Shown: positions 2,565 to 22,953 of the stretch, in pieces
How the letters are laid out: each line of letters begins with the position of its first letter
Numbering within the stretch: the first letter of the stretch is position 1
Translations under genes and position numbers: made by a program
The notes under the pieces: generated by a model
What the model saw: the letters and a program-made list of their open reading frames with translations, nothing else
Databases searched by the model: none
Told to the model about the DNA's origin: nothing
Virus record (IMG/VR): IMGVR_UViG_3300008448_000207
Span: 1 to 41,368 of that record
Strand: one strand, 5' to 3'
Origin: a virus
DNA length: 41,368 nucleotides

Positions 2565-2582
2565 TGTTAATTAATAAATTAA

Positions 2583-6099: not shown

Positions 6100-6122
6100 T
6101 GACCTACTCCTTCTTATTGCTT

Positions 6123-6524: not shown

Positions 6525-6573
6525 ATTGTCTCCTTTTTCTAGGTATTTAATTATATCATTGTTAAATTCAAAT

Positions 6574-6607: not shown

Positions 6608-6622
6608 AAGCCTATTTCCTAA

Positions 6623-7672
6623 TTAGGAAGCGACCTTAACGTTCTTTACAACTACCCATGCATCAGCTTGTTCAATCTGAACGCCAACACGAGTAAACAT
6701 TGTGTATTCGATAGAGTCCTTCTTTGGCCAGAAGAAGCGATATACAGTTACATCACGCTTGATACCAATAACTACGTTATTTGGGAATGTCAAGTGTACG
6801 TCTCCGTGATCGCCAGTCTCACCAGAGTAGTCACCGTCTTGTGCCTCTTTTAGAAGAGGAACTTCAACGATTGGAATACCGAATGCGAATGGTGCAACGA
6901 ATCCAGCTGGACCACCAAGACCTGGTTGATCTCCACGGATAATGCTTGAAGCAATATCTTGTGGGTTTACGTTCTGGATGTTTTGTGATGTTGAGTACAA
7001 GTAGTCCTGGATCAAGTTAGATCCTGCAAGGAATCGAAGATCCTGGCGACGTTGCTTGTACTTGCGTGGAAGTGCCTTCAACGCTGAGTTGAATACTGCA
7101 CGAGAAATATTAGCACCTGCTGCGTCAACTACGTGTCCGCTAGCCTTTGCCTTCTTTACAACACCGTCAAATGACTTGTATAGGTTGTCTGAAGTTAGAG
7201 CTGTATTTCCGTTAAGAACTACATCTTCAATATCATTACCTGCCTGTGTTGCCATCAAACGTGCAATGTGATCTTCTAGATCTGCACCTTCAATGTTGTC
7301 TTCAAGTGCTTCTGTTGAAAGCTCCCAGTCTAGGCGAAGCTTCTTTGTTGTTAGAGAAATCTTTGAGAAAGTCACTGCACTGTTTGTGCCTGTGTTTTCA
7401 CCTTCTGAAGCAAGCTTCATTAGTTTCTCTCCGACTGACATACGGTCAATCTCTGTTGTATCGGCCTTCATTCGGACTGTACGGGCGACCTTACCAATTA
7501 CGGTAGCATCGAACATATAATCTAGAAAGCGGGCTGATTGTTCTGGGTTTAGAAGTCCACCGTTTCCGTTTTCGGAAGCTCTGTGTACTCCTGTACCACC
7601 TGTTGAGGAGCCAAAGCCTGTTGATACTGTTGTACCTGCTTCTGCTGCCTTTTCTAATAGTTCATTACTCAT
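6623..7672 (-). CDS. Major capsid protein, HK97 fold
   Basis: 349 residues. The main shell protein. N terminus is flexible and Gly/Ser/Thr-rich (VSTGFGSSTGGTGVHRASEN), followed by LLNPEQSARFLDYMFDATVI, the usual start of the N-arm, and TTEIDRMSVGEKLMKLASEG. Later segments RLDWELSTEALEDNIEG, RKYKQRRQDLRFLAGSNL and C-terminal VTVYRFFWPKKDSIEYTMF fit the E-loop, A-domain and P-domain of HK97-type subunits. It follows the protease/scaffold gene by 14 bases and is followed by the strong terminator. Confidence 0.92.
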   Translation of the reverse strand: MSNELLEKAAEAGTTVSTGFGSSTGGTGVHRASENGNGGLLNPEQSARFLDYMFDATVIGKVARTVRMKADTTEIDRMSVGEKLMKLASEGENTGTNSAVTFSKISLTTKKLRLDWELSTEALEDNIEGADLEDHIARLMATQAGNDIEDVVLNGNTALTSDNLYKSFDGVVKKAKASGHVVDAAGANISRAVFNSALKALPRKYKQRRQDLRFLAGSNLIQDYLYSTSQNIQNVNPQDIASSIIRGDQPGLGGPAGFVAPFAFGIPIVEVPLLKEAQDGDYSGETGDHGDVHLTFPNNVVIGIKRDVTVYRFFWPKKDSIEYTMFTRVGVQIEQADAWVVVKNVKVAS

Positions 7673-7686
7673 TTATTTCACCTACC

Positions 7687-9009
7687 TTATTTGATTAATT
7701 CTTGTACGGAACCGAGGAAAGAACCGTTCCATTTAGATTTGGATTTTTGTAAAACTTCCTGAGACCCGCCAAGGTCACTGGACTTCTTAATTGCAGTGTC
7801 TGATTCTACTGCGTCTACACGCTTCTCAACTGTGTTGATTAGTGTGTTAATTTCTGCAACTGCCTTTGATAGCGCTGCATTTTGTTCTGCCAATTCTGTA
7901 ATCTTAGCTTCTACATTCTTTGCAAAAGACTCTACTGAATCTTTGATTGCTGAAACTTCAGCAGACTTTTGTTCTGCTGACTTTGCTACAGTTTCTGAGA
8001 AAAAGTTCTTAATTTCGCCAAGCATCTTTGCAAAATCAGGTTCATCAACCTCAACTTCTGATACGTCGGCTGCTTTTTCCAGAGTTTCGGCAGGAGCGTC
8101 TGCTACTGCATCTGCAGGAGCTTCAGCTGGTGCTTCTTCAGCAACAACTGATGTTTCTTCTACGGCTGCTTCTGGTGCTACTGCATCTTCTGCAACTACG
8201 TTTTCTGTGTTTTCTGACACTTCATTACCTCCTTCTGCGTTTGCCTGTTTTGCAATTGTTTGTGTTTCAGGCAACGACACTCTTGATTGCTTGTACGCAT
8301 CAAGAATTTTATCTATCTCTTTTGCTTTATTTACATCATTACTTTCTACCCAACCTATTAATTCTGCTGGTTTATTTGTAACTGGTGATACATAAGTTTT
8401 GTCTGTTGAGATAAAAACAGAATCACTTTCTGCACAATAAAAAATATTTTCCATTTTAACATCTGCTGCTATTCCTTTAAAAACTAACTGTCCGTTAACT
8501 TTTGAAATAGACAAAATGTTACATAGTTCATTTGCTGGTGAGTCAACAATTGAAAGTTCAATTAAATCATAGTCTTTAATAAATCTAACAGATTGACCAG
8601 TAGCTTTATTTACTTCATTGTCAGACTCATTAATTTTTCCGCCGATTGAAAATCCTGAAAGAGTACCATCTAGAACTTTTTCCCATGTATCTTGTGCACC
8701 CTTTGAAATGTATGCATCAACATACACTCCGCTATAAAAAGATTTTGTGGTTGGATCATAGAATGTTTCTGGTTTAAAAGAAACAACCTTTCCAACAGCA
8801 AGAGGTGTGTGCATCTCACGAAGGTTGCCACGGAAATTTTCAAAAGCTTTTAGGCTTGCTTCTGCTGTAACAACATCACCAGTTTGATCAACGTTATCTA
8901 GTGTTGCAAATCCAGAAACAGTTCTTTTCTCACGGTTAACCTTTGTAAAAGGAACTGAGAGATGAATGCTTTCGCCATTGGCAGACCAATAGGATTTTTC
9001 TATATTCAT
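7687..9009 (-). CDS. Prohead protease with C-terminal scaffold-like region
   Basis: 440 residues. Residues 15-170 form an HK97-type prohead serine protease: KRTVSGFATLDNVDQTGDVV, H67 in REMHTPLAVGKV, Ser118/Ser121 in GTLSGFSIGG, and E151 in LIELSIVDSPAN, matching the expected His-Ser-acid order. Residues 255-440 are Ala/Glu/Pro-rich low complexity followed by a long helical coiled-coil-like stretch and a short tail ending SFLGSVQELIK, typical of an internal scaffold removed on maturation. Which Ser is catalytic is not certain. The gene directly precedes the major capsid gene. Confidence 0.85.
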   Translation of the reverse strand: MNIEKSYWSANGESIHLSVPFTKVNREKRTVSGFATLDNVDQTGDVVTAEASLKAFENFRGNLREMHTPLAVGKVVSFKPETFYDPTTKSFYSGVYVDAYISKGAQDTWEKVLDGTLSGFSIGGKINESDNEVNKATGQSVRFIKDYDLIELSIVDSPANELCNILSISKVNGQLVFKGIAADVKMENIFYCAESDSVFISTDKTYVSPVTNKPAELIGWVESNDVNKAKEIDKILDAYKQSRVSLPETQTIAKQANAEGGNEVSENTENVVAEDAVAPEAAVEETSVVAEEAPAEAPADAVADAPAETLEKAADVSEVEVDEPDFAKMLGEIKNFFSETVAKSAEQKSAEVSAIKDSVESFAKNVEAKITELAEQNAALSKAVAEINTLINTVEKRVDAVESDTAIKKSSDLGGSQEVLQKSKSKWNGSFLGSVQELIK

Positions 9010-9064
9010 ATGCTTAATTTTATACCGTTATACTATATAACGCAAATAAGTAGTCGAGCAGATA

Positions 9065-10651
9065 TTACTCTGCTGACCGCCCATCGCCTTTAGCATTACG
9101 ACCCTCCCCAGATTTATCAGGAGAATTTGCAGATCGCTCAGAATCTCTAGTCCTGGTTTTTCCAGCTTGTGCAACCTGCTCAGCTGCCGCATCAGCCTTT
9201 AAATCAACGACCTCGTCTCCCCCCTCAATTGGAATCATACCCTTTCTAATTCTAACCTCATTAGGGGTAATTACCTGCATACGCAAATATCTTTCATCAA
9301 TTTTTGACTGAGTGTCTTCATCAGTAAGGGTAAGTTCATTAAATTTAATTAATAAAGCATCTGTTTTTTCTTCAATAATTTTATTTAATTTCTTTGCTAA
9401 ATTATTTTGTGCTGGGCCACAGACCTGTTCTCTAAATGTTTTATCGGCATCTCTAGCTACTGCAAGATTTACTCCAGCTGGGGTTCCTACCTTATTAATA
9501 GGAACTCTGTGGGCAAGTAATATCTCGTCTCTGTTTGACAGTCTGTATGTATTAAAAGATCCTTCTTGTGTACCAGCTTCAATTGGCTCCATTTTAAATT
9601 CAACTTTTGAGTCTGGAGAATCTGGTGGCAAAGGTATGTAAAGAGATCTATGGTTTTTACCCTTAAGCCCTACTTGAAAAAATTCAAGAAGCTTTCTCTC
9701 AGAATCTGTAGAAAGCTTTGCTCCCTTTACTGTAATAATATATCTTGGAACAGCCTTGTTTTCAAAATAATCAAGGTTATACTTACCAGCAAATTCGTTT
9801 CCTGCCATTGCATTTTGTGCGGCAATAATATCTGGAATTCCATAATAATTATTTGTAGGTGTATATTTCTTTAGATGAATAACTTCATTAGGCCTATCTT
9901 CAGCACCAGCAATTGGATTCTCTGTTGATAAGTCTCCAAAATTTCTGAAATATACAGCCTTGCCATATAGCAATTGAATAAAGCCATCACGTAGTCTACG
10001 AACTCTCATAGTTTTTGCTGGGATATGTCCAATATATCCAATGTTTCCAGCAACAGTTCTTCCGATTTCAATATATCCATTACCAGTTGCTTCTAAATCT
10101 ACATAAGCCTTTACTAACGTTTCAGTAAATGTTTCTTCTTCATTTACAGACTCTAGCCATTGCTCTAGGTCTCTTTTAATTCTATTAATTTTATTTCTTG
10201 CTCTTTCAAGCTGCTTAGGATCATCAATTTCATCTAGCGCATCTTTTGTTTTTCCTGTTTCCTCAAAAGAATAACCAAGGCCAACAATGTTTGAAACCTT
10301 AGCGTTTATCGCTGCATAATTGTATGGAGAGATTTCATAAATTTTTGAAAGATATTCTAAATTATAAGGTGGTTCAATTAAATCAAACATTGCGTAGCCA
10401 GTAATTGCTTGGGCTAACAAGTTTTGCTGTGTTGCAGTTCCGTCTATACCAACAAATCTTTTTTGAAGATCTCTTCCCATTTTTCTACGAAAAGAGGAGC
10501 CTAGTCCATTTATTTTTCGTAATTCTTCTCCGTCTACCTTAAATGGGTCTGTTTCTGTAGATGCACTTGGCGCATTAAATTTCATCCAGTCTGCTACATT
10601 AGATATATTAATAGAATCTTGCATTTCATTATCGTCTTCAATAAATTCCAT
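9065..10651 (-). CDS. Portal protein
   Basis: 528 residues. The dodecameric portal is the DNA entry and exit channel of the capsid. Visible features: the N-terminal wing with YLSKIYEISPYNYAAINAKV, the helical EWL-type insert around residues 130-170, the beta strand GNGYIEIGRTVAGNIGYIGH, a stem/clip region with RPNEVIHLKKYTPTNNYYGI, and the long helix around LAVARDADKTFREQVCG. This is the PBSX/HK97-type portal pattern. The last 50 residues are polar, charged low complexity. The start overlaps the preceding stop by one base. Confidence 0.9.
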   Translation of the reverse strand: MEFIEDDNEMQDSINISNVADWMKFNAPSASTETDPFKVDGEELRKINGLGSSFRRKMGRDLQKRFVGIDGTATQQNLLAQAITGYAMFDLIEPPYNLEYLSKIYEISPYNYAAINAKVSNIVGLGYSFEETGKTKDALDEIDDPKQLERARNKINRIKRDLEQWLESVNEEETFTETLVKAYVDLEATGNGYIEIGRTVAGNIGYIGHIPAKTMRVRRLRDGFIQLLYGKAVYFRNFGDLSTENPIAGAEDRPNEVIHLKKYTPTNNYYGIPDIIAAQNAMAGNEFAGKYNLDYFENKAVPRYIITVKGAKLSTDSERKLLEFFQVGLKGKNHRSLYIPLPPDSPDSKVEFKMEPIEAGTQEGSFNTYRLSNRDEILLAHRVPINKVGTPAGVNLAVARDADKTFREQVCGPAQNNLAKKLNKIIEEKTDALLIKFNELTLTDEDTQSKIDERYLRMQVITPNEVRIRKGMIPIEGGDEVVDLKADAAAEQVAQAGKTRTRDSERSANSPDKSGEGRNAKGDGRSAE

Positions 10652-11013
10652 TATTTATTTCCCCCATTTTTTAAGGCTCTCATTTCATCCTTATAGTTTC
10701 CAATATCCAAAGGATCTGGAACTAGTCCCCAATCAAGTCTTTGTTTTTGGTGTTCAAATTCTTCGTCTGATATTTTTCTTCTGTTAGAAAGAAATTTAGG
10801 CCCGCCCTCATATATGCCGTATGAGCGAACTTCTCTAGCCAAAGCATCGATTCTGGATCTATTGCCTTTTTTTGACGTGATCGAAAGAAAATTGCCATCG
10901 TCATCTCCAATCCATCTACCGTCTGGCATTTCCCAAACATATATGCCAAGTGTTGTTTCTTCAACAGTAGTCTGATTTAATCTTTTAATATCCATAGGAT
11001 AATATGATACCAT
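10651..11013 (-). CDS. Hypothetical protein upstream of portal
   Basis: 120 residues, not recognised. It contains IYVWEMPDGRWIGDDDGNFL and a basic, charged C-terminal half. The first ATG gives MVSYYPMDIKRLNQ; an ATG six codons later (10995) is also possible and neither has a strong ribosome site. The stop overlaps the portal start (TAATG), so the two are coupled. A terminase gene would usually be expected in this position and this is not one. Confidence 0.6.
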   Translation of the reverse strand: MVSYYPMDIKRLNQTTVEETTLGIYVWEMPDGRWIGDDDGNFLSITSKKGNRSRIDALAREVRSYGIYEGGPKFLSNRRKISDEEFEHQKQRLDWGLVPDPLDIGNYKDEMRALKNGGNK

Positions 11014-11056: not shown

Positions 11057-12763
11057 TTATACGCTTTGGATAACCACCCAGTCATTGTTATAGTATTTTA
11101 GCTCACTATCTGTCAGGGTTACGACTGGCTCTGTTAAGCTAGACTGAGGTTGCCCAGTATACAAGGTAAAGTGGGTGTCACAAATACTGCCAGTAATTTC
11201 TTTTTGGTATATTGCTATATTTTTATATAAGTTCTGTCCGCCACCAACATTTAGGTCTATGGCCCCTGTAATTGGTGATGTAAAAACAACCACTATGTGG
11301 TGTGGCTGCTCTGGGATTAAATATGATGATATATTTGATTGGGTTGAAATATCTACGTTATTGATGTATATCTTGCTTATATTACTTTTTGTTATTGCTC
11401 CGCTATTATTCCATGATAATCCATTTACCAACCCATTTCCGATAGTTGCGGTAGGAGTGTAAATCATTTCTATTGATTTTATATCTGATAGGGTGTTTAT
11501 TGTAAATTTGTCTGATAAGGGCCTAATTCCATTCATATAATTTCTTGACAATACTGGGTACCTGATTGAAGATAAATTATAATCAGAAGTTGAAGTAATT
11601 TTGTCTCCGTAGTTGTCTGCGTATAAAGTTCTATCTGAATAAAAACTTACGCAAAAAAATGATAGCCTAGGCTTATATTTTGCAACATCTGTTGTTGTCA
11701 TTGTAATTTCAAGATACAGTTTATATTCTGAAGAAAATGATCCAATTTTATACTGAGGTACTGGGCTACCATTAGTACAGACCTGCCAGTTAATGCCATC
11801 TACGCTTGAACGAACAGAAACTAATTCGGAATCTCTCCATTCAATTTTAGATGTAGTTAGACCTAAACTATTTGGTATTAAAACAGAGTCTTGATATACA
11901 AATGTTTGTGCTCCAGATAAATCAGAATAAAAAGAAACGTACCTAGATTCATTATCATAATAAGTGTTAGAAGATAAAATGTCTTCCCATTTTTTATTAA
12001 TTGGATAAGAGTACTCATAGGTAGATCTTATATTTGCATCAGTACCAGAGAACAAAACTCCTTCGTCTGGAAATACAACTTGAATTGCTGGAGATGTGAT
12101 ATTACCATCTATATAATGTTTTTTTATAGCAGCATCTGTTAATGCATATCTATATATTGCTGGAGCATCAACTATAAAAGAATCCTGTGCAGTATTACAA
12201 GGACCTATTGATGGCTCAAAATTTGTTGCAGAAAATTTAAAATTAGATAAAGTTTTTGAGGCTGCCTGTATACCATCAATATAAATTACAATAGACCTGG
12301 TTGTATATACTGCAACTAAGTAAATTGATTTTTTAATATATGGCAGGCTATACTCTACGGATTCAGATCCAACCTTAAAAATAATATTTCCTTTTTGCCA
12401 AAATATTCCAGTTTCAGAAGAACCAAATATTTTTTGTATATCGTTAGAAGATCCATAAAACATTGGATAAATCCAGGCTTCAAGCGTAAAATCGTTATCG
12501 CTTGTATATTTAGTTGCTAGACCTTCTGTTGCTGTAACAGCATAATAGTTTTTAGTTACTGGAAGAGATATAGAAGAAGAGTTTGTGATTAAAGTTCCTC
12601 TTGTGCCACCAGAAACTAGAGGCAATATATTATAGTTAAAGGTTCCAGAGTAAGTTCCGTTATTTGAGCATCCTGAAAAATCATATGCTGTAGTTCCGCT
12701 ACTCTCGTCAAGTCTCCAAAATCCTATTGGATTTTCTTGCATAATTTTTGACTGGTAGCTCAT
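11057..12763 (-). CDS. Virion protein with LamG / concanavalin-like domain
   Basis: 568 residues. The N-terminal 215 residues have the LamG/ConA-like lectin pattern: PIGFWRLDESSGTTAYDFSG, FTLEAWIYPMFYG and IYLVAVYTTRSIVIYIDGIQ. Such domains bind carbohydrates and are common in phage tail proteins. The rest is beta-rich, Ser/Thr/Tyr/Asn-rich, with a second possible lectin-like half near residues 400-540 (HHIVVVFTSPITGAIDLNVG). It sits between the oxygenase block and the head genes and is probably a surface or adhesion protein of the virion. Confidence 0.65.
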   Translation of the reverse strand: MSYQSKIMQENPIGFWRLDESSGTTAYDFSGCSNNGTYSGTFNYNILPLVSGGTRGTLITNSSSISLPVTKNYYAVTATEGLATKYTSDNDFTLEAWIYPMFYGSSNDIQKIFGSSETGIFWQKGNIIFKVGSESVEYSLPYIKKSIYLVAVYTTRSIVIYIDGIQAASKTLSNFKFSATNFEPSIGPCNTAQDSFIVDAPAIYRYALTDAAIKKHYIDGNITSPAIQVVFPDEGVLFSGTDANIRSTYEYSYPINKKWEDILSSNTYYDNESRYVSFYSDLSGAQTFVYQDSVLIPNSLGLTTSKIEWRDSELVSVRSSVDGINWQVCTNGSPVPQYKIGSFSSEYKLYLEITMTTTDVAKYKPRLSFFCVSFYSDRTLYADNYGDKITSTSDYNLSSIRYPVLSRNYMNGIRPLSDKFTINTLSDIKSIEMIYTPTATIGNGLVNGLSWNNSGAITKSNISKIYINNVDISTQSNISSYLIPEQPHHIVVVFTSPITGAIDLNVGGGQNLYKNIAIYQKEITGSICDTHFTLYTGQPQSSLTEPVVTLTDSELKYYNNDWVVIQSV

Positions 12764-12768
12764 TTACT

Positions 12769-13467
12769 TTAGCCCTTATCGTCAGAAATTGATACTGGAG
12801 GGTTTTTATAGAAAAATAGTGGAACACAATATTTTTTACCAGATGTAACAACTTTTGCCTGATGAATATAATCTGGAGTAGAAGGGAAAAATATTAAACA
12901 TCCAGATTCTGGTTTAATTGTAATATTATGTTGAGGAAACGCTAATTCTCCACCTTCATAGTCATCATTAATATAAATAACAGCAGATAATATTGTTTGA
13001 TTATCGTCTCCTGGGAAATCATCAAAATGTGGCCCCATGTCTGAGCCAGTGTTGTATTCTTTAATTTCAAAGGTACTAGGAAGATGAGGTATGTCCTTTA
13101 TATCTAATCTACTAAAATATTTTTGAGCCAATTCTTCTGCTGCTTTTCTCATAACCTCTACAAGATCATAGGCAATTAAATCTCCTCCAGATGGCTCAGA
13201 AGAATGATTAAATATAAAATGCCCTGTTTTAGTTCTACCATAAAAATACTCTGGGTCATCGTTTGCAGGCCATGGCAACCAAGGACCTAGCTGCTTTAAT
13301 GGGTTTCCTTTTATATTAAATGTTTTTTCATCTTCAAATCTTGCATCTAACTCTTCTAGCTCTCTAGGCCAACTTTCCATTAAATTTATAACATTTTTAA
13401 AAACAAATATTTTATCAGCAAAAATTGTAAGATTTTCTGTCAAATCTTTAACATTAACATTATTCAT
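12769..13467 (-). CDS. 2OG-Fe(II) oxygenase A (prolyl-4-hydroxylase-like)
   Basis: 232 residues. Family reaction: hydroxylation of a substrate coupled to oxidation of 2-oxoglutarate. The double-stranded beta-helix carries the Fe(II) triad H147-x-D149 (GPHFDDF) and H202 (DYIHQAKVV), with a 2OG-binding Lys at 211/212. The strand between them, VIYINDDYEGGELAFP, is the typical P4H-type signature. A cytoplasmic enzyme with no signal peptide. First of three adjacent oxygenases; separated by two bases from the next. Most like the viral PKHD-type hydroxylases; the substrate is not visible from sequence. Confidence 0.88.
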   Translation of the reverse strand: MNNVNVKDLTENLTIFADKIFVFKNVINLMESWPRELEELDARFEDEKTFNIKGNPLKQLGPWLPWPANDDPEYFYGRTKTGHFIFNHSSEPSGGDLIAYDLVEVMRKAAEELAQKYFSRLDIKDIPHLPSTFEIKEYNTGSDMGPHFDDFPGDDNQTILSAVIYINDDYEGGELAFPQHNITIKPESGCLIFFPSTPDYIHQAKVVTSGKKYCVPLFFYKNPPVSISDDKG

Positions 13468-13469
13468 TA

Positions 13470-14210
13470 CTATTCACCCTTACCCTTATAAATTGGAGCA
13501 TTTCCAGCAGCTTTGTCTTTTGCCCATTGATCGTAAGACAAATCTTGTTCTTTTCTAGTTGCAGCTAATTCATCAGCCCACCTTTGCCTTTGTTCGTCTG
13601 TATATTCCATTCTAGCGTCATCCCAAAAAGATCCTATTGTATATCTATCTCTTCTAGTATTTTTGACTTGAGTGACTTCGTGTTCGTTACCATGTCCGCC
13701 TTTAAATATTGCATATAAACCAACCTTTGGCTTTATTGCTATATCATAATGTTGAAAGTTTAATATGCCTCCATCAAAATCATCATTTAAGTATAAGAAT
13801 CCAGCATATCTACTTCTTTCAAACGCTGTTGGCTTACCGTCTTTTGAATTGTCTGAATGAAAATCTGCGAAAGCTCCTTCTACCCACTTTTGAGCATGAT
13901 AACTAATTTCAGCAAATTTATGTCCAAATATATCTTCGCCACACTTTTTAAATTTAAACTTTAATCTGTTAAAGTAGTCTTCTGGTAGGCCAAACTCTGG
14001 CAGAGTAGGATCTGAGTCCCAGAATCCCATTGCAAAAGAGTCATAAAAAGAAATTTGATTCCACTTAAGTCTTCCACTTTCAACTAATGATTCTAAATAT
14101 TTAATCATAGCTTCTGCTTCTTGCTCGGAAATAAAATTTTCAACAGTAAAGACGTCGTCTTTCCACTCTTTAATTGTTGGATATTTATCTAAAATTTCTT
14201 GACTAATCAC
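13470..14210 (-). CDS. 2OG-Fe(II) oxygenase B
   Basis: 246 residues. Triad H118-x-D120 (FADFHSDNS) and distal H177 (GNEHEVTQV), with Arg187/189 for 2-oxoglutarate. The core strand is FLYLNDDFDGGILNFQ. It differs from its neighbours in the longer N-terminal helical region (FGLPEDYFNRLKFKFKK) and in a charged C-terminal helix (WADELAATRKEQDLSYDQW). All iron ligands are present, so it is probably active. Its start overlaps the upstream oxygenase gene by four bases (ATGA). Confidence 0.85.
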   Translation of the reverse strand: MISQEILDKYPTIKEWKDDVFTVENFISEQEAEAMIKYLESLVESGRLKWNQISFYDSFAMGFWDSDPTLPEFGLPEDYFNRLKFKFKKCGEDIFGHKFAEISYHAQKWVEGAFADFHSDNSKDGKPTAFERSRYAGFLYLNDDFDGGILNFQHYDIAIKPKVGLYAIFKGGHGNEHEVTQVKNTRRDRYTIGSFWDDARMEYTDEQRQRWADELAATRKEQDLSYDQWAKDKAAGNAPIYKGKGE

Positions 14211-14959
14211 TTGTCTTCCTTTGTTAATTGTTTAATAGTCCAAAACCATGGAGATGTATATCTTGTTCCCTTTGTAACCTTATCTACTCCGTGAATATAA
14301 TTTTTGTCTCCTGGGAAAAAATATACCGCTCTTCTTTTTGGCTTGAATGCAATTTTTTGTAATGGGAAATGAAGCTCCCCTCCTTCATAATCTTCGTTTA
14401 AATAAAATATTGTTCCTAGGTCATACCAAGGGAAATCGTTTTCAGTTCCTGCATCTGGACCCTCGTGTAATTCTTTATCTGCATGTGGAAATTGAAAAGT
14501 TCCTACTGGCCATCTAACTATAGCTGGGTTTGTTGGCTCAACTTCTACAACACCAAAAAAATCTTCTATAACTGGTTTAAATCTTGCTATTACTTCACGA
14601 AGCATGTCTACAACTTTTTGATCTGCTTTCATTAAGGTGTTTAGTGTAGCTACTCTATTTTCCCATGGTCTGTGATCATAAATAATTGTGCCATTTTCAT
14701 TATAATGAGATTCGGTTACGTCCCAGATCTTATTGTTTCTGGCAAAATTTTCTAGATAGTCGCACTCTTCTTCTGTAAGAAAATTTTCTATTTCGCCTAT
14801 CATCTCTGGACCAGACCCAAAATAACCTGAAGGGGTGATTGACTTTCTAGCAGTTCTAATATGCTTACCCTCTTCTAAAGAATCATGATTTTGAATGATA
14901 TCATCGTCGTGAGCGCTTTTAAACAAAACGTCACTATCGAAAGAAATTATATTGTCCAT
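14207..14959 (-). CDS. 2OG-Fe(II) oxygenase C
   Basis: 250 residues. Triad H159-x-D161 (FPHADKELH), H223 (YIHGVDKVT), with R233 for 2-oxoglutarate. The signature strand IFYLNEDYEGGELHFP precedes the double-psi turn KRRAVYFFPGD. N-terminal 45 residues are acidic and polar without a recognisable domain. It is a full-length P4H-like domain, clearly paralogous to the other oxygenases here but not a recent copy. Substrate unknown. Confidence 0.87.
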   Translation of the reverse strand: MDNIISFDSDVLFKSAHDDDIIQNHDSLEEGKHIRTARKSITPSGYFGSGPEMIGEIENFLTEEECDYLENFARNNKIWDVTESHYNENGTIIYDHRPWENRVATLNTLMKADQKVVDMLREVIARFKPVIEDFFGVVEVEPTNPAIVRWPVGTFQFPHADKELHEGPDAGTENDFPWYDLGTIFYLNEDYEGGELHFPLQKIAFKPKRRAVYFFPGDKNYIHGVDKVTKGTRYTSPWFWTIKQLTKEDK

Positions 14960-14968
14960 TTTTTCTCC

Positions 14969-15709
14969 TTATTCATAGCTTTTTTTAACCCAAGTTGTTT
15001 TTTTATAAACTCCGCCAAATTTAACTCTAAATTTTGATACGATTGACATGTGCCTATCGTACATTTCGTCATTACTATAGTATACCATCTCTGAAGTCCA
15101 AGCCTCACGCTTTATCGGAAATATCTGAGCAAACGGTGTTCCTTTTGGAATTAAACCAGAAAACCCTTCTTTTAAAAAGAATGGCATTAAGCCTGGCAAA
15201 GTATACCTATCGCTATCTATTATTCCATTAACTGTTAAAAATGGTAGATCATTTCTATTGAGAGGAGAAGTTACTAAAGCACTATATCCATCTGGCATTT
15301 GTATTCCCCAATTAGGCCACCAATGAAAATGCTTTTTGCTATATCCATGAGGATATTCAAACTGTGGCATGCTACTTCTTGCTTCACAAAAATCTTTATA
15401 TTTTGGATCAATAATTACATGTGGCTCTCCATCATACTGGGCAAACATTATGTCTGTCGGAGTTCTTAAAACATATCCTGTTGAAAAAACATCTAGGAGT
15501 GCTGGACAAGATTTAAACCCTAAAGATTTTTCTAGCTCATCATCTTTATTGTATGCTGCCATTATTGGATCTCCGTTATCATCAACCCAATATTTTGTTG
15601 CATCTTTCCACCAATTTGGCATAAAATTTTTAGCTGGCCCTGGCTCTAAAGACTTGTGCTCATTTTCATTATTATAAGGTCTTGCAGAACCAAATTTAAT
15701 TTTTGGCAT
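14969..15709 (-). CDS. DUF6065-like protein 1 (jelly-roll-like, possible dUTPase-fold motif)
   Basis: 246 residues. It shares a pattern with the next gene: GYVLRTPTDIMFAQYDG (residues 78-94) and IPKGTPFAQIFPI (187-199). The second, following GIIDSDRY (162-169), resembles the GxID...GxxxAQ arrangement of dUTPase/dCTP deaminase folds, but the rest does not match those enzymes. I associate this pair with DUF6065, a family of unknown function, with moderate confidence. Its presence inside an oxygenase block suggests a shared role, for example substrate recognition or assembly. Confidence 0.6.
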   Translation of the reverse strand: MPKIKFGSARPYNNENEHKSLEPGPAKNFMPNWWKDATKYWVDDNGDPIMAAYNKDDELEKSLGFKSCPALLDVFSTGYVLRTPTDIMFAQYDGEPHVIIDPKYKDFCEARSSMPQFEYPHGYSKKHFHWWPNWGIQMPDGYSALVTSPLNRNDLPFLTVNGIIDSDRYTLPGLMPFFLKEGFSGLIPKGTPFAQIFPIKREAWTSEMVYYSNDEMYDRHMSIVSKFRVKFGGVYKKTTWVKKSYE

Positions 15710-16415
15710 TATTTACCACCTTAAGTTTTAAACTTTTAACTTCATGTTTACCCAATTTATTTCCTAAATAATCTACAGCATCACGATAAAAATTAGTCCA
15801 CTTGTTTTCTTCTGCAAGCTTTGCAACATATTTAATATGTTCTGTTTCATTATATTGATCTGCATATGGAGAAATAGGCATAGTGTTTTTATTTAGCATC
15901 TCTATTTCTGAAAGCTCGATTTCGCCAAGTGACACTGGTATTACTGATATTACTGGGTGTCCTGCTGGAATTGTAATTGGAGTATACGGCTTAGTTATTC
16001 TCCACGCTACTGGAAATTCTGCAGTATAAAAAGAAGTGCTTATTGCTGTTGTAAAAGGTTGAGCCCCATCTAAAAAGTAATTAGGGGCTGGCATTCCAAG
16101 TAGGCTAACATTTTCTTCAGTTTTAAAAATTAATCCTGTTTTAAAACTTATAGTTGCATTAGCTCTTTCTGTGTAGCAATATTTATGTCCAGCAAGAATT
16201 TTTACGTGATCTTTACTAGAATCTGATTTTCCATCCCAAACAAAAGTTATGTCTTCTGGAAAAGATAATGACCAACCAAGAGTATTTGTTAAAGTTACTG
16301 GGAAACAAGTATACGCATGTCTGTCATATGTTTGCTCCATCCACTCACGTTTTGCCTGTAAAGGAGACAATGTAGCAGCATCTTCAGAAGAAACATAAGC
16401 TTTTATTTTATACAT
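15696..16415 (-). CDS. DUF6065-like protein 2
   Basis: 239 residues from the ATG at 16415. An upstream in-frame GTG at 16445 would lengthen it by ten residues, but the AGAAGG just before the ATG favours the shorter form. Paralogue of the preceding entry: GWSLSFPEDITFVWDG (47-62) and IPAGHPVISVIPV (149-161) align with its motifs. Aromatic and Thr/Ile/Val-rich strands suggest a beta sandwich. The dUTPase-like GxID element is absent here, so a nucleotidase role is unlikely for this copy. Overlaps its downstream neighbour by 14 bases and the upstream oxygenase by eight. Confidence 0.6.
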   Translation of the reverse strand: MYKIKAYVSSEDAATLSPLQAKREWMEQTYDRHAYTCFPVTLTNTLGWSLSFPEDITFVWDGKSDSSKDHVKILAGHKYCYTERANATISFKTGLIFKTEENVSLLGMPAPNYFLDGAQPFTTAISTSFYTAEFPVAWRITKPYTPITIPAGHPVISVIPVSLGEIELSEIEMLNKNTMPISPYADQYNETEHIKYVAKLAEENKWTNFYRDAVDYLGNKLGKHEVKSLKLKVVNNAKN

Positions 16416-17106
16416 AACCTTCTGTATATCTCTTTTCAATATCACGATAGTCTGGCGTATGTGGAGCTTCTAGATAATCTAGCATAGTAACAATTGAATA
16501 TTTTGTTCCGCTTGTTACTGGCATTGCTGCATGAGAATAAATATAAGAAGACGGGAATAAATAAAGATCTCCTGCTTTTGGTTTAATCTTTAAGTTAAAC
16601 TTATCAAAGAAGAGCTCTCCGCCTTCGTAATCATCATTAATATATCCAACAGAAGAAAGCACACAAATGTAGGAGTATCCGTGATCTGAATGAACCTGGA
16701 AGTGTTGGTTTGGTCCATACTTAACAAAGTTAAATGACTCCCAATAGTTTAATGGGGCAAGTCCAAAAGCATTACGATATTCTTCAACTGGCTTTAGCTG
16801 TGCTTTATAAGAGTCTTCCCAAATTTTTTCTAACTCTATTTCGGCCTCTTTTTTATTGTCTTTATTAACATACTGCATTGATAGCATTAGACTGTCATCG
16901 CTATTTCTTTTAATTTTAAAATCGTGTGCATCTCTATATTTTAAATCTGTATGTGCATAACCAGTTTGAGACTGATTCCACTTATATTTACCTTCGCTCT
17001 TACTTAAAGAATTTTCTAGTCTGTTTACAAGGTCCATTTCTTTTGTAAAAACATCTCTATATACAACAATTCCGTAATGTAAGTACTCTGCATTTGGAGA
17101 AAACAT
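16408..17106 (-). CDS. 2OG-Fe(II) oxygenase D
   Basis: 232 residues. Triad H139-x-D141 (QVHSDHGYSY) and H192 (IYSHAAMPV), with K202 for 2-oxoglutarate (SGTKYSIVTMLDY). Signature strand GYINDDYEGGELFFD. Closest to oxygenase E: both share YGPxQxF, DHGxSYI, AGDLYxFPS and the TMLDY strand, so this pair arose by duplication. The N-terminal part up to residue 125 is helical and differs more. Start overlaps the upstream stop by one base (TAATG). Confidence 0.88.
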   Translation of the reverse strand: MFSPNAEYLHYGIVVYRDVFTKEMDLVNRLENSLSKSEGKYKWNQSQTGYAHTDLKYRDAHDFKIKRNSDDSLMLSMQYVNKDNKKEAEIELEKIWEDSYKAQLKPVEEYRNAFGLAPLNYWESFNFVKYGPNQHFQVHSDHGYSYICVLSSVGYINDDYEGGELFFDKFNLKIKPKAGDLYLFPSSYIYSHAAMPVTSGTKYSIVTMLDYLEAPHTPDYRDIEKRYTEGYV

Positions 17107-17720
17107 TATTTTATACCATACTTTCTATCTATATATTCTTCATACTCTACAGTATGAGTGTCATCATTATAATCTAGCATTGTTACAAATGAATATTTAG
17201 TTCCCGACCTTACTGGCATTGCTACGTGGGAAAACAAATAGGTAGAAGGAAATATGTATAAGTCCCCTGCCTTTGGTTTTTCAAAAATCTTTAATTTTGG
17301 AAAAGCTAATTCTCCTCCAACATAGTCGTCATTTGGATAAGATACTAATGAAACTGTAGATATATATGACCATCCATGATCTGCATGCTCTTTAAAATAT
17401 TGTCCTGGACCATATTTAACAACATTAGTCCATTCCCAAAAACCCATTTTTATTTGGTAATAATCGCAATATGCATCTACATAAGGCTTTTGAGATTCAT
17501 AAAGATGTTTATATATATTATGATCTTTTCCTAAATCGCTTAGCTTAAAATCATAACAGTCTCTATATTCTATATCTGTTTCTTCTAGTCCTACTTGAGC
17601 TTTAGCCCAAGAGCAATCCCCTTTTGATACGGCTTTTTCAATTTCATTTATTACATCAAATGACTTATCAAAAACATTTTCAAATTTCCATATACCTGGG
17701 AATATTTCTATTTTATTCAT
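17106..17720 (-). CDS. 2OG-Fe(II) oxygenase E, probably leaderless
   Basis: 204 residues. Triad H112-x-D114 (KEHADHGWSY) and H165 (LFSHVAMPV), with K175 for 2-oxoglutarate. Signature YPNDDYVGGELAFP. Shorter than D in the N-terminal helical region but otherwise a clear paralogue. The gene starts the oxygenase block: a TTGACT-N17-TAAAGT promoter ends exactly six bases before its ATG, so the transcript may begin at the start codon, although AGGA is also present in those six bases. Confidence 0.87.
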   Translation of the reverse strand: MNKIEIFPGIWKFENVFDKSFDVINEIEKAVSKGDCSWAKAQVGLEETDIEYRDCYDFKLSDLGKDHNIYKHLYESQKPYVDAYCDYYQIKMGFWEWTNVVKYGPGQYFKEHADHGWSYISTVSLVSYPNDDYVGGELAFPKLKIFEKPKAGDLYIFPSTYLFSHVAMPVRSGTKYSFVTMLDYNDDTHTVEYEEYIDRKYGIK

Positions 17721-17726
17721 ATTCCT

Positions 17727-17755
17727 ACTTTAGCATTTAATATCTAGTTAGTCAA
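17727..17755 (-). promoter_or_regulatory. Promoter for the oxygenase block
   Basis: Minus strand: TTGACT (17755-17750), 17-base spacer, TAAAGT (17732-17727), then six bases to the ATG of oxygenase E. The -35 box lies in the last codons of the Hint-domain gene. Confidence 0.55.
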
Positions 17756-19405
17756 CATATGGATGGGGCATCCATTGTATGCAAGCATACCTCCAGCAAT
17801 AATCATGCCGTATGGCTCTCTATAGAAAAGAATTGTATTTGTTTTCTCTTTTATAATATTTAAACTAGTTATTGGAACAATATTGATAGATTCATCTGAG
17901 TAAATAACTAAAGAATCTCCTACAGATAAGTTTTCAACTGTAACAATAACATATTTATTATTTTTATAAATTAAAACATCTTCTTTTAATGAAAATCTCT
18001 TATCTTGATCATCGTTAATAACCATAGTTTTATTATGAGATTCAGTTAAAATATTAGTTATTTTAGAATTTAATAGTTTATGATTTTTTAACTCATTAAC
18101 TGACCATGAATTTACTATTTCTGAACATTCTGCTGTAACTACTCCAAACGAACAATTGTCTGCTCCGTATGTTATATCGTCAAAGTCTAGCGTAGCTAGT
18201 GTGTCTCCTATAACAATATCTTTTGCTTTCTTGTACCCGTCCGTTGTGAGTACAGGAGTATCCTCCTGAATACAAAATCTTGGTGGGCTAAAGAATCTTG
18301 GTGGGCTAAAGAATCTTGGTGGGCTAAAGAATCCTGGAGGACCAAAGAAACGTGGTGGGCTAAAGAATCTTGGTGGGCTAAAGAATCCTGGAGGACCAAA
18401 GAACCCTGGTGGGCCGAAGAAACGTGGTGGTGCAAAGAATCCTGGAGGACCAAAGAACCCTGGTGGGCCGAAGAAGAACGGTGGGCCGAAGAAGCGTGGT
18501 GGGCTAAAAAACGCTGGCGGGGCAAAGAACCCTGGTGGGCTAAAGAATCCTGGAGGACCAAAGAATGCTGGGGGTCCAAAGAAAAACGGTGGGCCAAAGA
18601 ATCCTGGAGGGGCAAAGAACCCTGGAGGAGAAAAGAAACGTGGTGGTGCAAAGAAGCGTGGTGGTGCAAAGAAATCTGGTGGCGTAAAGAAAAGAGGTGG
18701 AACGAAGAAAGTTGGTGGCAAGAAAAATGCTGGTGGGGCAAAGAATCCTGGTGGGCCGAAGAATGACGGTGGGCTAAAGAATGTTGTTACTTGATTTGTT
18801 GTAGCTCCAACAGAAGTTCCGTTAGCATTAATTGCTACTACTGTATAAGACTGTGAAGTTCCACCAACCTCTGAGATTGTGTATGGTGATGTTACGTTAT
18901 TATAAACTGGACCTGGTGTTCCATCTGAAGGTGGCTGAGTGTTTGGATCACTAGATGTAATTCTATAACTAGAAATAGCTTTTCCACCGTCATTTGCTGG
19001 TGCTGTCCAAGATACAACATCTTGATCTGCTACAGTTGACGAAACTGCTGGAGTTCTTGGAATACCAGGAACTGTAGTTGCTAAAATTTGATTTGAAGAT
19101 ACAGATTCATCTGAGTTACCATTAGCATTTGTTGCTAAAACTTTAAAAGTATAATTAACATTACTTTGAAGTCCTACAACTGTAATTGGGCTTGCCGATC
19201 CTTCACCAGTAAAACTTCCTGGAGTAGATCTTACTGTAAAGCTTGTTGGAACAGTACTTAATGGATCTACTGTAAAGCTTACTGTTGCGGCTCCATTATT
19301 AAAAAGTCTATTTGTTCCAACATCTGTTGCTACAGGGTTAAGTGGTGGCAACGGCTTTTCAAAATCGCCTGCTGCTGCTGACTTCTTACCAGATTTCTTT
19401 CCCAC
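17744..19405 (-). CDS. FN3 - (xFFxPP)28 - Hint domain protein
   Basis: 553 residues with four parts. Residues 1-17 are basic, Lys/Ser-rich. Residues 18-207 form two fibronectin type III domains (SNVNYTFKVLATNANGNSDE; VVSWTAPANDGGKAISSYRI). Residues 208-375 are 28 uninterrupted copies of the hexapeptide xFFxPP. Residues 378-553 are a Hint (hedgehog/intein) domain: C378 in CIQEDTPVLTTDGYKKAKDI, VIGD, a TxxH block B at T454-H457 (TESH) and a terminal AGGMLAYNG with N544. The Cys takes the place of the second Phe of the next repeat. The His normally before the terminal Asn is Tyr, and only nine residues follow it, so splicing is unlikely; thioester cleavage or attachment at C378 remains possible. 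Probably a surface fibre protein. Confidence 0.85.
   Translation of the reverse strand: MGKKSGKKSAAAGDFEKPLPPLNPVATDVGTNRLFNNGAATVSFTVDPLSTVPTSFTVRSTPGSFTGEGSASPITVVGLQSNVNYTFKVLATNANGNSDESVSSNQILATTVPGIPRTPAVSSTVADQDVVSWTAPANDGGKAISSYRITSSDPNTQPPSDGTPGPVYNNVTSPYTISEVGGTSQSYTVVAINANGTSVGATTNQVTTFFSPPSFFGPPGFFAPPAFFLPPTFFVPPLFFTPPDFFAPPRFFAPPRFFSPPGFFAPPGFFGPPFFFGPPAFFGPPGFFSPPGFFAPPAFFSPPRFFGPPFFFGPPGFFGPPGFFAPPRFFGPPGFFGPPGFFSPPRFFSPPRFFGPPGFFSPPRFFSPPRFFSPPRFCIQEDTPVLTTDGYKKAKDIVIGDTLATLDFDDITYGADNCSFGVVTAECSEIVNSWSVNELKNHKLLNSKITNILTESHNKTMVINDDQDKRFSLKEDVLIYKNNKYVIVTVENLSVGDSLVIYSDESINIVPITSLNIIKEKTNTILFYREPYGMIIAGGMLAYNGCPIHMLTN
18281..18784 (-). repeat. 18-bp tandem repeat, 28 copies, encoding xFFxPP
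   Basis: 504 bases made only of 18-base units. The units nearest the Hint domain (18281-18340) are almost identical at DNA level, while the distal ones differ at several positions. This suggests recent expansion at one end by slippage or unequal recombination. Each unit keeps the Phe-Phe and Pro-Pro pairs and varies the two other residues (G, A, S, R, F, others). Confidence 0.95.
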
Positions 19406-19413: not shown

Positions 19414-19917
19414 CTAAGCCGTAAGATCTCCGAATACTAACCATGTGTTAGCATCCCGTTTTAATAGAGTGGCAATTGACCACTGACTTCTTATTTTTAA
19501 TCCTGGGGTAGCATTAAGATTAACTCCAAAAGCACTACCTATAGTAATTTGACCAGAATTGGTTTGAATAACATCTATAGTTGTTCCTATTGGAAATGTT
19601 AGAGAAGGTGTGTCTGCTGGAATAGTTAGTGTTCCAGCAACCTTTAATGACATTTCAATTATAGAGTCTCTTTCGTCTAAAGAAGAAAGAGTATAATTTG
19701 AATAAACCTTATTTATTTTAGTAATAGAAGGAACGCCTTGTTTAGACTGAGGTCCATCTGAAAAATTTAATGTTCCATTACCAGTATTCATAGTTCCAGT
19801 AAGGTTAACAGTTCCGCCTAGTGTGGCGGAACCATTAACACCAAATTCTTCTGCTACCGACAGAGTTTTTACTGATAGTTCAGCGTTATAAGGTATTTTT
19901 ACTTTTTGTACAGACAT
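19414..19917 (-). CDS. Tail fibre / structural protein
   Basis: 167 residues. Gly/Thr/Asn-rich strands at the start (GVNGSATLGGTVNLTGTMNT) suggest a repeated beta-helix. The C-terminal part TIDVIQTNSGQITIGSA and SIATLLKRDANTWLVFGDL is a pattern I associate with tips or caps of fibre proteins in other phages. It lies between the Hint-domain gene and the 1004-residue fibre gene. Role inferred from composition and position. Confidence 0.6.
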   Translation of the reverse strand: MSVQKVKIPYNAELSVKTLSVAEEFGVNGSATLGGTVNLTGTMNTGNGTLNFSDGPQSKQGVPSITKINKVYSNYTLSSLDERDSIIEMSLKVAGTLTIPADTPSLTFPIGTTIDVIQTNSGQITIGSAFGVNLNATPGLKIRSQWSIATLLKRDANTWLVFGDLTA

Positions 19918-19938: not shown

Positions 19939-22900
19939 TTACGCTGATGCTTCTGTCCAAGATAGACGAGAGTAAACGCTAGCAGTTGACCCTCCGAGGT
20001 TTGTTGCTGTAATTGTTAGAACGTCTGGACCGTCTGGATAAATACCAGAAGTTGTTACGGTTCCTCCTCCACCCAAGATAGAGTTTCCTAGATCTCTAAG
20101 TGTACTTAGGTCAACTGAGTTTGTTCCAGTGGTAAAGAATCCACCAGTAACTTCTCCGCCAGAAACTGTTGAGCTTTGACCAGAATAGTCTGCAATTTGT
20201 GCAAGAGATGAGTTGACTGCGCCTGTTACGTTACCAACTGCATTTGTCCATGTTAATGACTGTGATGGTGTTCCATTAAGTATTGCCTGTACCAGAATTG
20301 TTGAACCTGATGATACAGATACGTCAAGGGCCCTCATGGCAAGCTGCATTCTATTTACAATTTCACGAGCACCAAAGTTTGCAGCAATTCCGTTATCTGC
20401 AGAAGGTGCTACACGAATTGAAAGAAGTGCTCTTGTTGCTCCTGATGGAACTGAAGTTGCAGTTCTCTGTCCATATGTAAAGATAAGTGACTTATCTTCA
20501 TCATACTGTCCGTCCATAATAACTGATGTTCCCCAGTGTGAAATAGTTGCTGCAAATGTTGGGAAAGCTAACTCAACACATGCTGGTGATTGTGCGTCAT
20601 AGGTAAACTGTAGAGGAACATCTGATCCCATTGGAACTGCTGAGAAAGCAGAGTTAGCTGCAGCTACTGGCTGGCTAAATGTAATTGCTCCTGTATCGTA
20701 GTTAATTGCAGATACAAAAGTCTCATCTGGATACTCTGACCCAACGACTCTCATACCAACCTGAATTTTTGCTGTATCAGCACCAAGTGTAATATTTCCT
20801 CTATTTTGTCCGCTTCCAATAGTAATTGCTACGTTTTGTGCTCCAAGCTTTGCACGAGTTAAACCAGTAAATGATGTTGCTGTTTTACCAGAATAATTTA
20901 CATACTCAACCTGTGTTGTATTTCTAACAACCAAGGTTCCAGAGCTAGGGAATCTTGATGTATCTTTTACTGGCAAAGATGTGCCAGTAGTCAATACTGT
21001 ATCTGTTAGGCTTGTAAAAGGAGGGTTTGTAGTTGAAGAATATCTACCTGGAAGGTTACCAGAGCGCATATACGCTTCAGTGTTAACGTTATTGTTTTGC
21101 ATTCTGTGCAAATAAATAATGTTACCCTTTGGACCTCTTACACCCCAACGGATAAATCCTGCTCCATACCATGTATAGTCGATATAGAACATCTGCATCT
21201 TAGAAAGGTCCATTGTATATTGTGAAGGTCCTGTTCCATCTGCCTTGTCCATGTTAAATTGATCTTGAGGAACTCTTGTATCAATTGTCTTTGAGTAAAT
21301 ACATAGTGAAGCTGTTGCTCCTCTATATGCAGGAGAAATATTCATTTCAATATCATTTGTAATCGAAGTAATTCTGTAAGATTGTCCTCTAATTACAATT
21401 GTATCTCCTGGAATTAACTGCTTGCTAAAATATGTTGGTTGTTCGCTAAGTGACTGAACAACAACGTCTGAACCGTTAGTTACGTTAATTCTTCCAGAAA
21501 GTTGAGTTGTTGAGCTTCTACGAACTGCATAAAGCTTTGTTCCGTCATACTCAAAAAATACTCCGTTTTGCTCATCAAACATACCAAGTCTATTTTGACA
21601 TCCGTACCATGCTTCAATAGAAGCAAACACGTTGCCAGTTGCAATAGTGCTTGATGGTGTAGATAGAGCTGTATATGAGAACCTATTGTATCCTAGAATA
21701 TCGTTTACCACGAATGTTCCATTGTATGCTGATTGATCAGCACCACCAATTTTTACTATAGTTCCTGGCTGGATACAGTGCTTTTCTTTTGTAACAACAG
21801 TTACAGTTGTTCCAGATGAAGTAATTGAGTCAATACCTGCGTATGGCTTTAGAATTGTTCCTGAAGACATTTGAATGCCCTTACCAGATTGATATCTAAA
21901 GTAACGTCTTGTTTGACGATATGCTTCTCCGTAGTTAGAACCAGCTTGAGTACCAAAAATTACTCCGCCGTCTGCTGGTCTATGCAAGAAAACACCTTGA
22001 GGTCTAACATAAATTTCTGTTGGCCCTCCTAGTGTTCCTGTTGGAACGTTATTTGCGTAATACACAAACTGTGTTGGGCTAAGAACTGTTGCAACAACAA
22101 AGTTACCGTTTGGTGGATTTGTTGTAGCTGTTGATCCCTTAACAACAATTTCGTTTCCAATTGCTAGTCCGTGGTCTACTGTAGTAGTAACGTTAATTCT
22201 ATTAGTAGAATAGGTTAATGCTGGAATAAATCCAATTCTTGCGCCACTAAATACTGTAGCTCTATAAATTGCTGTTTTATTTGTGTCTAAAATATTTGTT
22301 AGGTTAGCTTGGCTATTTTTTGAAGAAGCTGTATAAGTGAATGTATTTGTTCCTCCACCAGACTCCACAACAAAGTTACCGTTTGCTGCTGGAGCAAATG
22401 TATCTTGTACAGAAATAGGGTCTCCGTTATTTGGACCAACTCCTGAAGTTAATGATACGGTTACAACGTTTGTTCCCAAGCCGTAAGTAATTGATCCAAT
22501 ATTTGCAATTGGAGTTGGAGATGCGTAAGCAAAAGGCTTGTTGTTATAGAGAGCTAAGTTTTCCCACTTTGAAATCTGTGTTCCATATTCAAAGTCTGTA
22601 TCAATAAGAGCTTGTGGCTGAGTTACTCTAAGCTTATTTGTTGGATCCAACATTGTTTCTGATGGAGTAAATGATTCATCCACCTCATCCAATGTGATTG
22701 AAATTTTATCTGTAGACAACATCGCTGCTGTATTATATGCAAAAACGATGGTCGTGGTCTCGACACCATTTGCCTCTAATGAAACATAAGATGTTGCATT
22801 AAGTGAAGGGTCAGAGAAGTTATAAATTACCTGATTTTGGGTAACGTTTGTAATTAAAAGCAGTCTCTCTCGTGGGATTGCCTTTGGAATCACCAAAGTC

Positions 22901-22953
22901 TTAGTCGATGGTGTAAATGTATAATGTGTTTCTACTAAAATTTTTCTTGCCAT
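19939..22953 (-). CDS. Large virion structural protein
   Basis: 1004 residues. It begins MARKILVETHYTFTPSTKTL, a start I associate with cyanophage-type virion proteins. Beta-rich repeats follow: a motif around NRINVTTTVDHGLAIGNEIV recurs as TTVTVVTKEKHCIQPGTIVK and related stretches, suggesting three or more copies of one domain with a GN(F/E)VV element. The middle segment MQMFYIDYTWYGAGFIRWGV is distinctive. No signal peptide. Probably a major fibre or baseplate component; four bases separate it from the next gene. Confidence 0.65.
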   Translation of the reverse strand: MARKILVETHYTFTPSTKTLVIPKAIPRERLLLITNVTQNQVIYNFSDPSLNATSYVSLEANGVETTTIVFAYNTAAMLSTDKISITLDEVDESFTPSETMLDPTNKLRVTQPQALIDTDFEYGTQISKWENLALYNNKPFAYASPTPIANIGSITYGLGTNVVTVSLTSGVGPNNGDPISVQDTFAPAANGNFVVESGGGTNTFTYTASSKNSQANLTNILDTNKTAIYRATVFSGARIGFIPALTYSTNRINVTTTVDHGLAIGNEIVVKGSTATTNPPNGNFVVATVLSPTQFVYYANNVPTGTLGGPTEIYVRPQGVFLHRPADGGVIFGTQAGSNYGEAYRQTRRYFRYQSGKGIQMSSGTILKPYAGIDSITSSGTTVTVVTKEKHCIQPGTIVKIGGADQSAYNGTFVVNDILGYNRFSYTALSTPSSTIATGNVFASIEAWYGCQNRLGMFDEQNGVFFEYDGTKLYAVRRSSTTQLSGRINVTNGSDVVVQSLSEQPTYFSKQLIPGDTIVIRGQSYRITSITNDIEMNISPAYRGATASLCIYSKTIDTRVPQDQFNMDKADGTGPSQYTMDLSKMQMFYIDYTWYGAGFIRWGVRGPKGNIIYLHRMQNNNVNTEAYMRSGNLPGRYSSTTNPPFTSLTDTVLTTGTSLPVKDTSRFPSSGTLVVRNTTQVEYVNYSGKTATSFTGLTRAKLGAQNVAITIGSGQNRGNITLGADTAKIQVGMRVVGSEYPDETFVSAINYDTGAITFSQPVAAANSAFSAVPMGSDVPLQFTYDAQSPACVELAFPTFAATISHWGTSVIMDGQYDEDKSLIFTYGQRTATSVPSGATRALLSIRVAPSADNGIAANFGAREIVNRMQLAMRALDVSVSSGSTILVQAILNGTPSQSLTWTNAVGNVTGAVNSSLAQIADYSGQSSTVSGGEVTGGFFTTGTNSVDLSTLRDLGNSILGGGGTVTTSGIYPDGPDVLTITATNLGGSTASVYSRLSWTEASA

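Follow-up and report, generated by a model that had tools for sequence, protein, structure and literature searches.

Phage oxygenase-DUF6065 gene clusters are linked to aromatic-proline repeat proteins, their probable substrates

Introduction

Few genes of unexplained role are as common in aquatic phages as those encoding 2-oxoglutarate (2OG) oxygenases. These enzymes are chemically versatile, and the main known target of PF13640/prolyl 4-hydroxylase (P4H)-type enzymes is proline. The P4H of the algal virus PBCV-1 reportedly acts on proline repeats and is said to have been proposed to modify viral proteins. This viral enzyme (Eriksson et al. 1999, doi 10.1074/jbc.274.32.22131) is cited in PMC9301287. 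Phage 2OG-Fe(II) oxygenases of PHROG 61 were found through structure search to resemble human EGLN3 and to be prolyl-hydroxylase-like (PMC12774648), and cyanophage clusters of 2OG-Fe(II)-dependent oxygenase (2OGFeDO) and halogenase genes have been interpreted as secondary-metabolite pathways (PMC7824862). This study investigated a fragment of a virus genome, the IMG/VR virus record IMGVR_UViG_3300008448_000207 (41,368 nucleotides, referred to in its entirety as the window), in which five oxygenase genes (O1-O5) and two DUF6065-like genes (D1 and D2) follow the gene of an aromatic-proline repeat protein (R). A literature search of incomplete coverage found no paper naming DUF6065 and no description of an oxygenase-DUF6065-repeat gene set.

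Results

All open reading frames (ORFs) of the block were verified on the minus strand at the positions reported in an initial annotation of the window. Their transcription order is P, R, O1, O2, D1, D2, O3, O4, O5, and a gene encoding a LamG-domain protein. From R through its seven downstream genes, the intergenic gaps do not exceed 23 bp and several genes overlap; therefore, this stretch appears to form a single operon.

The linkage of the enzymes to the repeat was analyzed in IMG/VR by using three independent seeds, namely the D2 protein, a conserved oxygenase motif, and an enzyme-free query of DNA that codes for three FFxPP units. All linkage counts cover loci among the matches listed; the contigs are phylogenetically non-independent, and the counts are uncorrected for phylogeny. 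The D2 seed yielded 49 loci, 29 of which were testable because 2.6 kb or more of sequence preceded the cluster; a 4-kb interval was scored for an aromatic-proline repeat ORF, and one was located just upstream in all 29. By using the oxygenase seed, we found the repeat gene upstream in 43 of 45 testable loci, and one of the two misses carries a repeat too. For the repeat-DNA seed, we scored repeat ORFs followed by 3 kb or more of sequence; within 3 kb downstream, 58 of the 64 ORFs had an oxygenase gene and 56 had both an oxygenase and a DUF6065 gene. Removing clusters at least 80% identical in D left 66 non-redundant clusters, and the repeat was just upstream in 63 of these by the automatic rule and in 64 when L329 was added on inspection; the remaining two are L362, a lone second D, and L347, a true exception. 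The order O1/O2-D1-D2-O3-O4-O5 was retained down to approximately 45% D2 identity. The oxygenase/DUF6065-repeat linkage thus runs in both directions and recurs widely among divergent, uncultivated water phages of IMG/VR.

The initial annotation had raised, as a point that would speak against its own proposal, that the oxygenases might be found equally often without a proline-repeat neighbor. This is not so for the oxygenase/DUF6065 cluster (64/66) but is so for 2OG oxygenases in general, as cyanophage isolates and ten large contigs revealed. A repeat is located no more than 8 kb away from 17 of the 19 D genes and from 49 of the 98 oxygenase genes in these contigs, and the O2 relatives of cyanophage isolates (25-35% identity) are located beside the primase-helicase gene, often alone and without a repeat. 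Because repeat-less 2OG oxygenases are common, our claim covers this cluster type and not phage 2OG oxygenases at large.

The repeat unit occurs as FFxPP, FFPP, or FFP. The seeming exceptions L043, L047, L052, and L227 (a metagenome-assembled genome [MAG] contig) carry variant FFPP/YFPP units, and further variants comprise FFPFFPPFF mixtures and, in L349, HFPP. The N-termini of the carrier proteins consist of two fn3 domains, a short head of approximately 81 residues, or proteins of approximately 740 residues, and their C-termini consist of a Hint domain with Cys and HN, a Hint-like domain without Cys, a short end, or a Cys-rich end. Cys-rich tail ends in place of Hint, such as GCSGCARSYCWQACPSCCGSCGC, were observed in L310, L315, L308, L325, and L363. 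Because the N-terminus and C-terminus of the carrier vary whereas the aromatic-proline repeat stays, it is the repeat, and not fn3 or Hint, to which the enzymes are tied. The clusters contain five to eight oxygenases each. Among the listed clusters, the O-D-O-D order was found solely with FFP/FFPP repeats (11/24 versus 0/33 with FFxPP), and single-D clusters were found solely with FFxPP repeats (12/33 versus 0/24 with FFP/FFPP).

R (17744..19405, minus strand), the proposed substrate, comprises two fn3-like domains (fn3 PF00041, 2.9e-8), the xFFxPP repeats, and a Hint-like C-terminal domain. The initial count of 28 xFFxPP repeats directly upstream of the enzyme block proved exact. The FFxPP units follow a strict 6-residue period at approximately residues 208-375 and are encoded by a tandem array of 28 copies of an 18-bp unit (18276..18782, minus strand; Tandem Repeats Finder and codon table). 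The repeat codons vary synonymously at the fixed F (TTC/TTT) and P (CCA/CCT/CCG/CCC) positions while the residues stay constant, indicating that the conserved thing is the peptide. In 126 distinct repeat ORFs, the unit spacing was 6 in 1366 of approximately 1,420 gaps, the x between FF and PP was A, S, or G in approximately 95%, and G was the commonest residue after PP.

FF is as constant as PP, and the x between them is restricted to A/S/G; these features would also fit a modification of the tail of R at Phe or at the variable x, or a reaction that yields a cross-link or a handle for glycosylation instead of simple hydroxyproline. The number of enzymes per cluster, which exceeds the need of prolyl hydroxylation alone, and the versatile chemistry of 2OG oxygenases favor this alternative as well. 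However, Pro is the main known target of PF13640/P4H-type enzymes, the listed structural neighbors of O2 are overwhelmingly prolyl hydroxylases (described below), and the cluster contains no glycosyltransferase gene, the sole one seen in the window being located at 32508-33494. We consider the alternative possible but doubtful.

The Hint-like domain of R (17747..18277, minus strand) extends over 176 residues from CIQEDTPV. The initial annotation had called it Hint; in R it looks degenerate, with the Cys present, a sub-threshold PF13403 match (E 0.27), and the terminal residues YN instead of HN, although homologues of R exhibit weak Intein_splicing matches and HN ends. The Intein_splicing match of L327 (E 4e-6) is below the cut-off, and several homologues carry both Cys and HN in the Hint domain. 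Hint was absent from 87 of 165 distinct repeat ORFs with complete tails; the Hint domain of the repeat proteins is optional.

All five oxygenases scored above the Pfam gathering score for PF13640 (E 3e-13 to 8e-7). The genes are located on the minus strand at 17106..17720 (O1, prolyl-hydroxylase-like, 1.8e-10), 16408..17106 (O2, prolyl-hydroxylase-like, 3.3e-13), 14207..14959 (O3, 7.6e-7), 13470..14210 (O4, 4.4e-8), and 12769..13467 (O5, 3e-13; phmmer to a Bacillus P4H, 2e-5). An alignment of O1-O5 revealed that H147, D149, and H202 (O5 numbering), which constitute the HxD...H iron triad, are invariant and that Lys or Arg (Arg in O3) occupies the 2OG-binding position 10-12 residues past the second His; these findings confirm the initial description of five P4H-like oxygenases with both features. 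HxD...H was kept in 140 and K/R in 141 of 144 non-redundant oxygenases of related clusters, and phrog_61 was matched by all five window oxygenases. O2, one of the five, was modeled by using AlphaFold2 (AF2; pLDDT 93.3), and the model suggests a double-stranded beta-helix fold nearest to prolyl hydroxylases. Its 50 listed Protein Data Bank (PDB) matches were almost entirely prolyl hydroxylases (PHD/P4H), including PPHD:EF-Tu, algal P4H:(Ser-Pro)5, PHD2:HIF, viral vCPH, and Bacillus P4H. The predicted fold of O2 fits peptidyl-proline hydroxylation but is no proof of it.

The best listed PDB match of the O2 model was the P. putida prolyl hydroxylase bound to EF-Tu. This match favors a reading in which the oxygenases hydroxylate host proteins (e.g., EF-Tu or a ribosomal protein) and alter translation in the infected cell, with the linkage to R reflecting late-operon co-inheritance. 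Such a role would leave unexplained the five to eight divergent copies, their constant place behind the repeat, and the covariation of the enzyme set with the repeat unit; moreover, the operon is located among structural, presumably late genes. We regard hydroxylation of host proteins as very improbable.

D1 (15696..16445, minus strand) matched DUF6065 (PF19541, 1.4e-32) at 113.5 bits against a gathering cut-off of 26.6 and is homologous to alphaproteobacterial DUF6065 (hhalign 7e-33). D2 (14969..15709, minus strand; phrog_7084, 3.3e-32) had no Pfam match, PF19541 included, and is a divergent, profile-level paralogue of D1 (hhalign 3.7e-20), in agreement with the initial recognition of two paralogous DUF6065-like genes. 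No match to D1 was found in 50,697 phage records; a D1-only scan of bacterial genomes yielded two MAG contigs, of which L227 is a phage contig with the same block. A protein 100% identical to D2 is also encoded in the 100,563-bp contig L024/G001, and D2 homologues were found in dozens of haloarchaeal tailed-virus records; those of HF1, HF2, and HSTV-4 exhibited 26-31% identity.

The D genes of phages are nearly always located within runs of oxygenase genes. DUF6065 was found in 26 of 190 sampled alphaproteobacterial genomes, and in two alphaproteobacterial loci (L236:1450-3165 and L239:574-2244) it is fused to a Cupin_8/JmjC-like hydroxylase domain. Given that DUF6065 is joined here to a hydroxylase class unrelated to that of the phage clusters, and given the phage clusters themselves, the simplest reading is that DUF6065 is a partner of hydroxylases. 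A fusion of DUF6065 to SapC was observed in alphaproteobacterial L238.

The AF2 model of D2 (pLDDT 93.6) predicts a beta-clip fold like that of dUTPases, all 50 listed PDB matches being of the dUTPase/dCTP-deaminase type (best E 3.7e-4, TMt approximately 0.6). D2 also retains GIID and GTPFAQ stretches like dUTPase motifs 3 and 4, and its homologue in HSTV-4 (L055:7860-8741) is located two genes from a class II ribonucleotide reductase gene. These observations favor the alternative that D1 and D2 are dUTPase/dCTP-deaminase-like nucleotide enzymes unrelated to the oxygenases. We consider this unlikely; the motif-3 Asp is missing from D1 and bacterial DUF6065 (including L231), and both the Cupin_8 fusion and the placement of phage D genes inside oxygenase runs argue against it, as does the alignment of the D profile to bacterial dUTPase profiles, which was not significant (hhalign probability 1.2%). 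Because of this non-significant alignment, we claim for D only the dUTPase fold and not homology. The dUTPase active-site motifs are not jointly retained in D1/D2, PF00692 (dUTPase) matched neither D1 nor D2, and 16 related phage records yielded no PF00692 dUTPase gene either. The dUTPase-fold homologue of HSTV-4, near its class II ribonucleotide reductase, may serve a nucleotide role.

The gene of P, a small protein, is located directly upstream of R (19414..19917, minus strand) in a position conserved by synteny, and the C-terminus of P recurs as the end of 600-1200-residue fiber-like proteins in relatives. The downstream flank, likewise conserved by synteny, encodes a concanavalin A/LamG-domain protein (11057..12763, minus strand; PF13385, 6e-8; phrog_11584, 8e-27). 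Structural genes surround the block, encoding a portal, a head protease, a capsid-type protein, a virion structural protein, and a tail fiber. The capsid-type protein (window 6623-7672) was closest to those of Streptomyces phages (Faust and Mildred21, 58-62% identity), which suggests that the hosts of the window phage are Actinobacteria. The nearest relatives of the 1004-residue virion protein (19939-22953) are in Synechococcus T4-like phages (approximately 45%), and a tRNA-Ile gene with anticodon TAT is located at window 38464-38539.

The initial annotation had also named a fiber protein with a collagen-like PGPQGPRG motif as a further substrate. The motif is present, but it occurs once, in a 155-residue ORF (29298-29765) with no NCBIfam match and no extended Gly-X-Y repeats; a collagen array in the window was rejected, and the fiber was dismissed as a weak candidate for a second substrate. 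In another genome with the block, L340:1646-2389 encodes a protein with the collagen-like GEKGEQGPPGPQGPEGPR, a possible additional target.

Discussion

We propose that a dedicated post-translational hydroxylation operon probably acts on the repeat tail of R, with Pro as the most probable target and D as a partner. The initial suggestion that the enzyme block acts on virion proteins is thereby retained for the neighboring repeat protein with its DUF6065 partners, in line with the 64/66 linkage, and abandoned for the collagen-like fiber. R and its seven downstream genes would form one functional unit. We infer that O1-O5 hydroxylate the Phe-Phe-(x)-Pro-(Pro) tail, most probably at its prolines, by using 2-oxoglutarate, Fe(II), and O2, and that D1 and D2 are partners without catalytic activity, which either bind the tail, present it, or serve as a scaffold for the oxygenases. 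The need for several enzymes may reflect the distinct positions that the tail offers, namely the first and second Pro, C3 and C4, and the variable x. R would be located in the virion, where its mature tail would provide the C-terminus of a tail-fiber-locus protein, either directly or, where Hint is present, after putative Hint cleavage and release.

Several observations weigh against this proposal. The Foldseek TM-scores of the O2 model (approximately 0.47-0.65) leave the substrate unfixed, and the P4H fold is common to hydroxylases of residues other than Pro. The L347 cluster (489-10816) has no repeat gene nearby, and D and O groups without a repeat neighbor occur in contig G012. Conversely, second aromatic-proline repeat proteins without adjoining enzymes occur in L120, L124/L375, L086, L134, and L372. 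Bacterial DUF6065 genes had neither a P4H-like neighbor nor a repeat in 19-kb contexts, and the D2 homologue of HSTV-4 has no annotated oxygenase neighbor.

On inspection, L347 carries sulfotransferase-like, methyltransferase-like, luciferase-like, and cupin-like genes and possibly has another substrate. In the related phage of contig G012 (L197, 6335-19322), luciferase-like monooxygenase, peroxiredoxin/AhpD-like, and glutathione-peroxidase-like genes were likewise noted on inspection beside extra oxygenase genes and a repeat-less DUF6065 gene. The second repeat proteins are located a few kb from the enzyme-linked one and are sometimes much larger.

The existence of O-D clusters without a repeat, the DUF6065-SapC fusion of one bacterial genome, and the published interpretation of cyanophage clusters with several 2OGFeDO hydroxylases (PMC7824862) would agree with a block that makes or modifies a small molecule, a surface sugar, or an amino-acid-derived metabolite and that came to lie next to R through the hypervariable tail-fiber region. 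However, the conserved block contains no carbamoyl, methyl, sugar, or amino-acid activating enzyme, and the repeat remains upstream in 64 of the 66 listed non-redundant clusters despite changing carriers, a pattern that a chance location within a variable region would fail to produce. We judge a small-molecule role to be quite unlikely.

A broader reading of hydroxylation of the repeat tail has, in our estimate, an even chance of being correct: three to ten P4H-like oxygenases in an array, together with a repurposed dUTPase-fold adaptor, would turn virion aromatic-proline tails into heavily hydroxylated, collagen/extensin-like material, with enzyme sets matched to repeat grammars, in a widespread class of phage operons. 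One large subset of phage 2OG oxygenases now has a specific candidate substrate encoded adjacently, so that their role becomes testable. If the proposal is true, this operon would be, to our knowledge, the first known case of a phage devoting several enzymes to the hydroxylation of a structural protein; it would also provide a function for DUF6065 and a modular enzyme and repeat toolkit for hydroxylated protein materials made in bacteria.

The vCPH of PBCV-1 (PDB 5c5t) is, like O1-O5, a virus-encoded P4H-fold enzyme and ranks near the top of the structural matches of O2, whereas it is a single enzyme of an algal virus with a different repeat, no oxygenase array, and no DUF6065 partner. The PHROG 61 oxygenases of cyanophages and other phages belong to the same superfamily as O1-O5, but the O2-like matches in isolates are often alone near a primase-helicase gene. 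The cyanophage 2OGFeDO clusters similarly bring several phage 2OG oxygenases together, but they hold carbamoyltransferases, a halogenase, a methylase, and sugar enzymes, of which the present block has none (PMC7824862). The bacterial DUF6065-Cupin_8/JmjC fusions (L236 and L239) likewise couple DUF6065 to a 2OG-hydroxylase-type domain; however, their hydroxylase class is not P4H, and they are cellular, with no FFxPP repeat nearby. HF1, HF2, and HSTV-4 share the protein family of D2 (phrog_7084), and HSTV-4 differs in its lack of an annotated oxygenase neighbor. The parts of the block are ordinary; their conserved combination is not.

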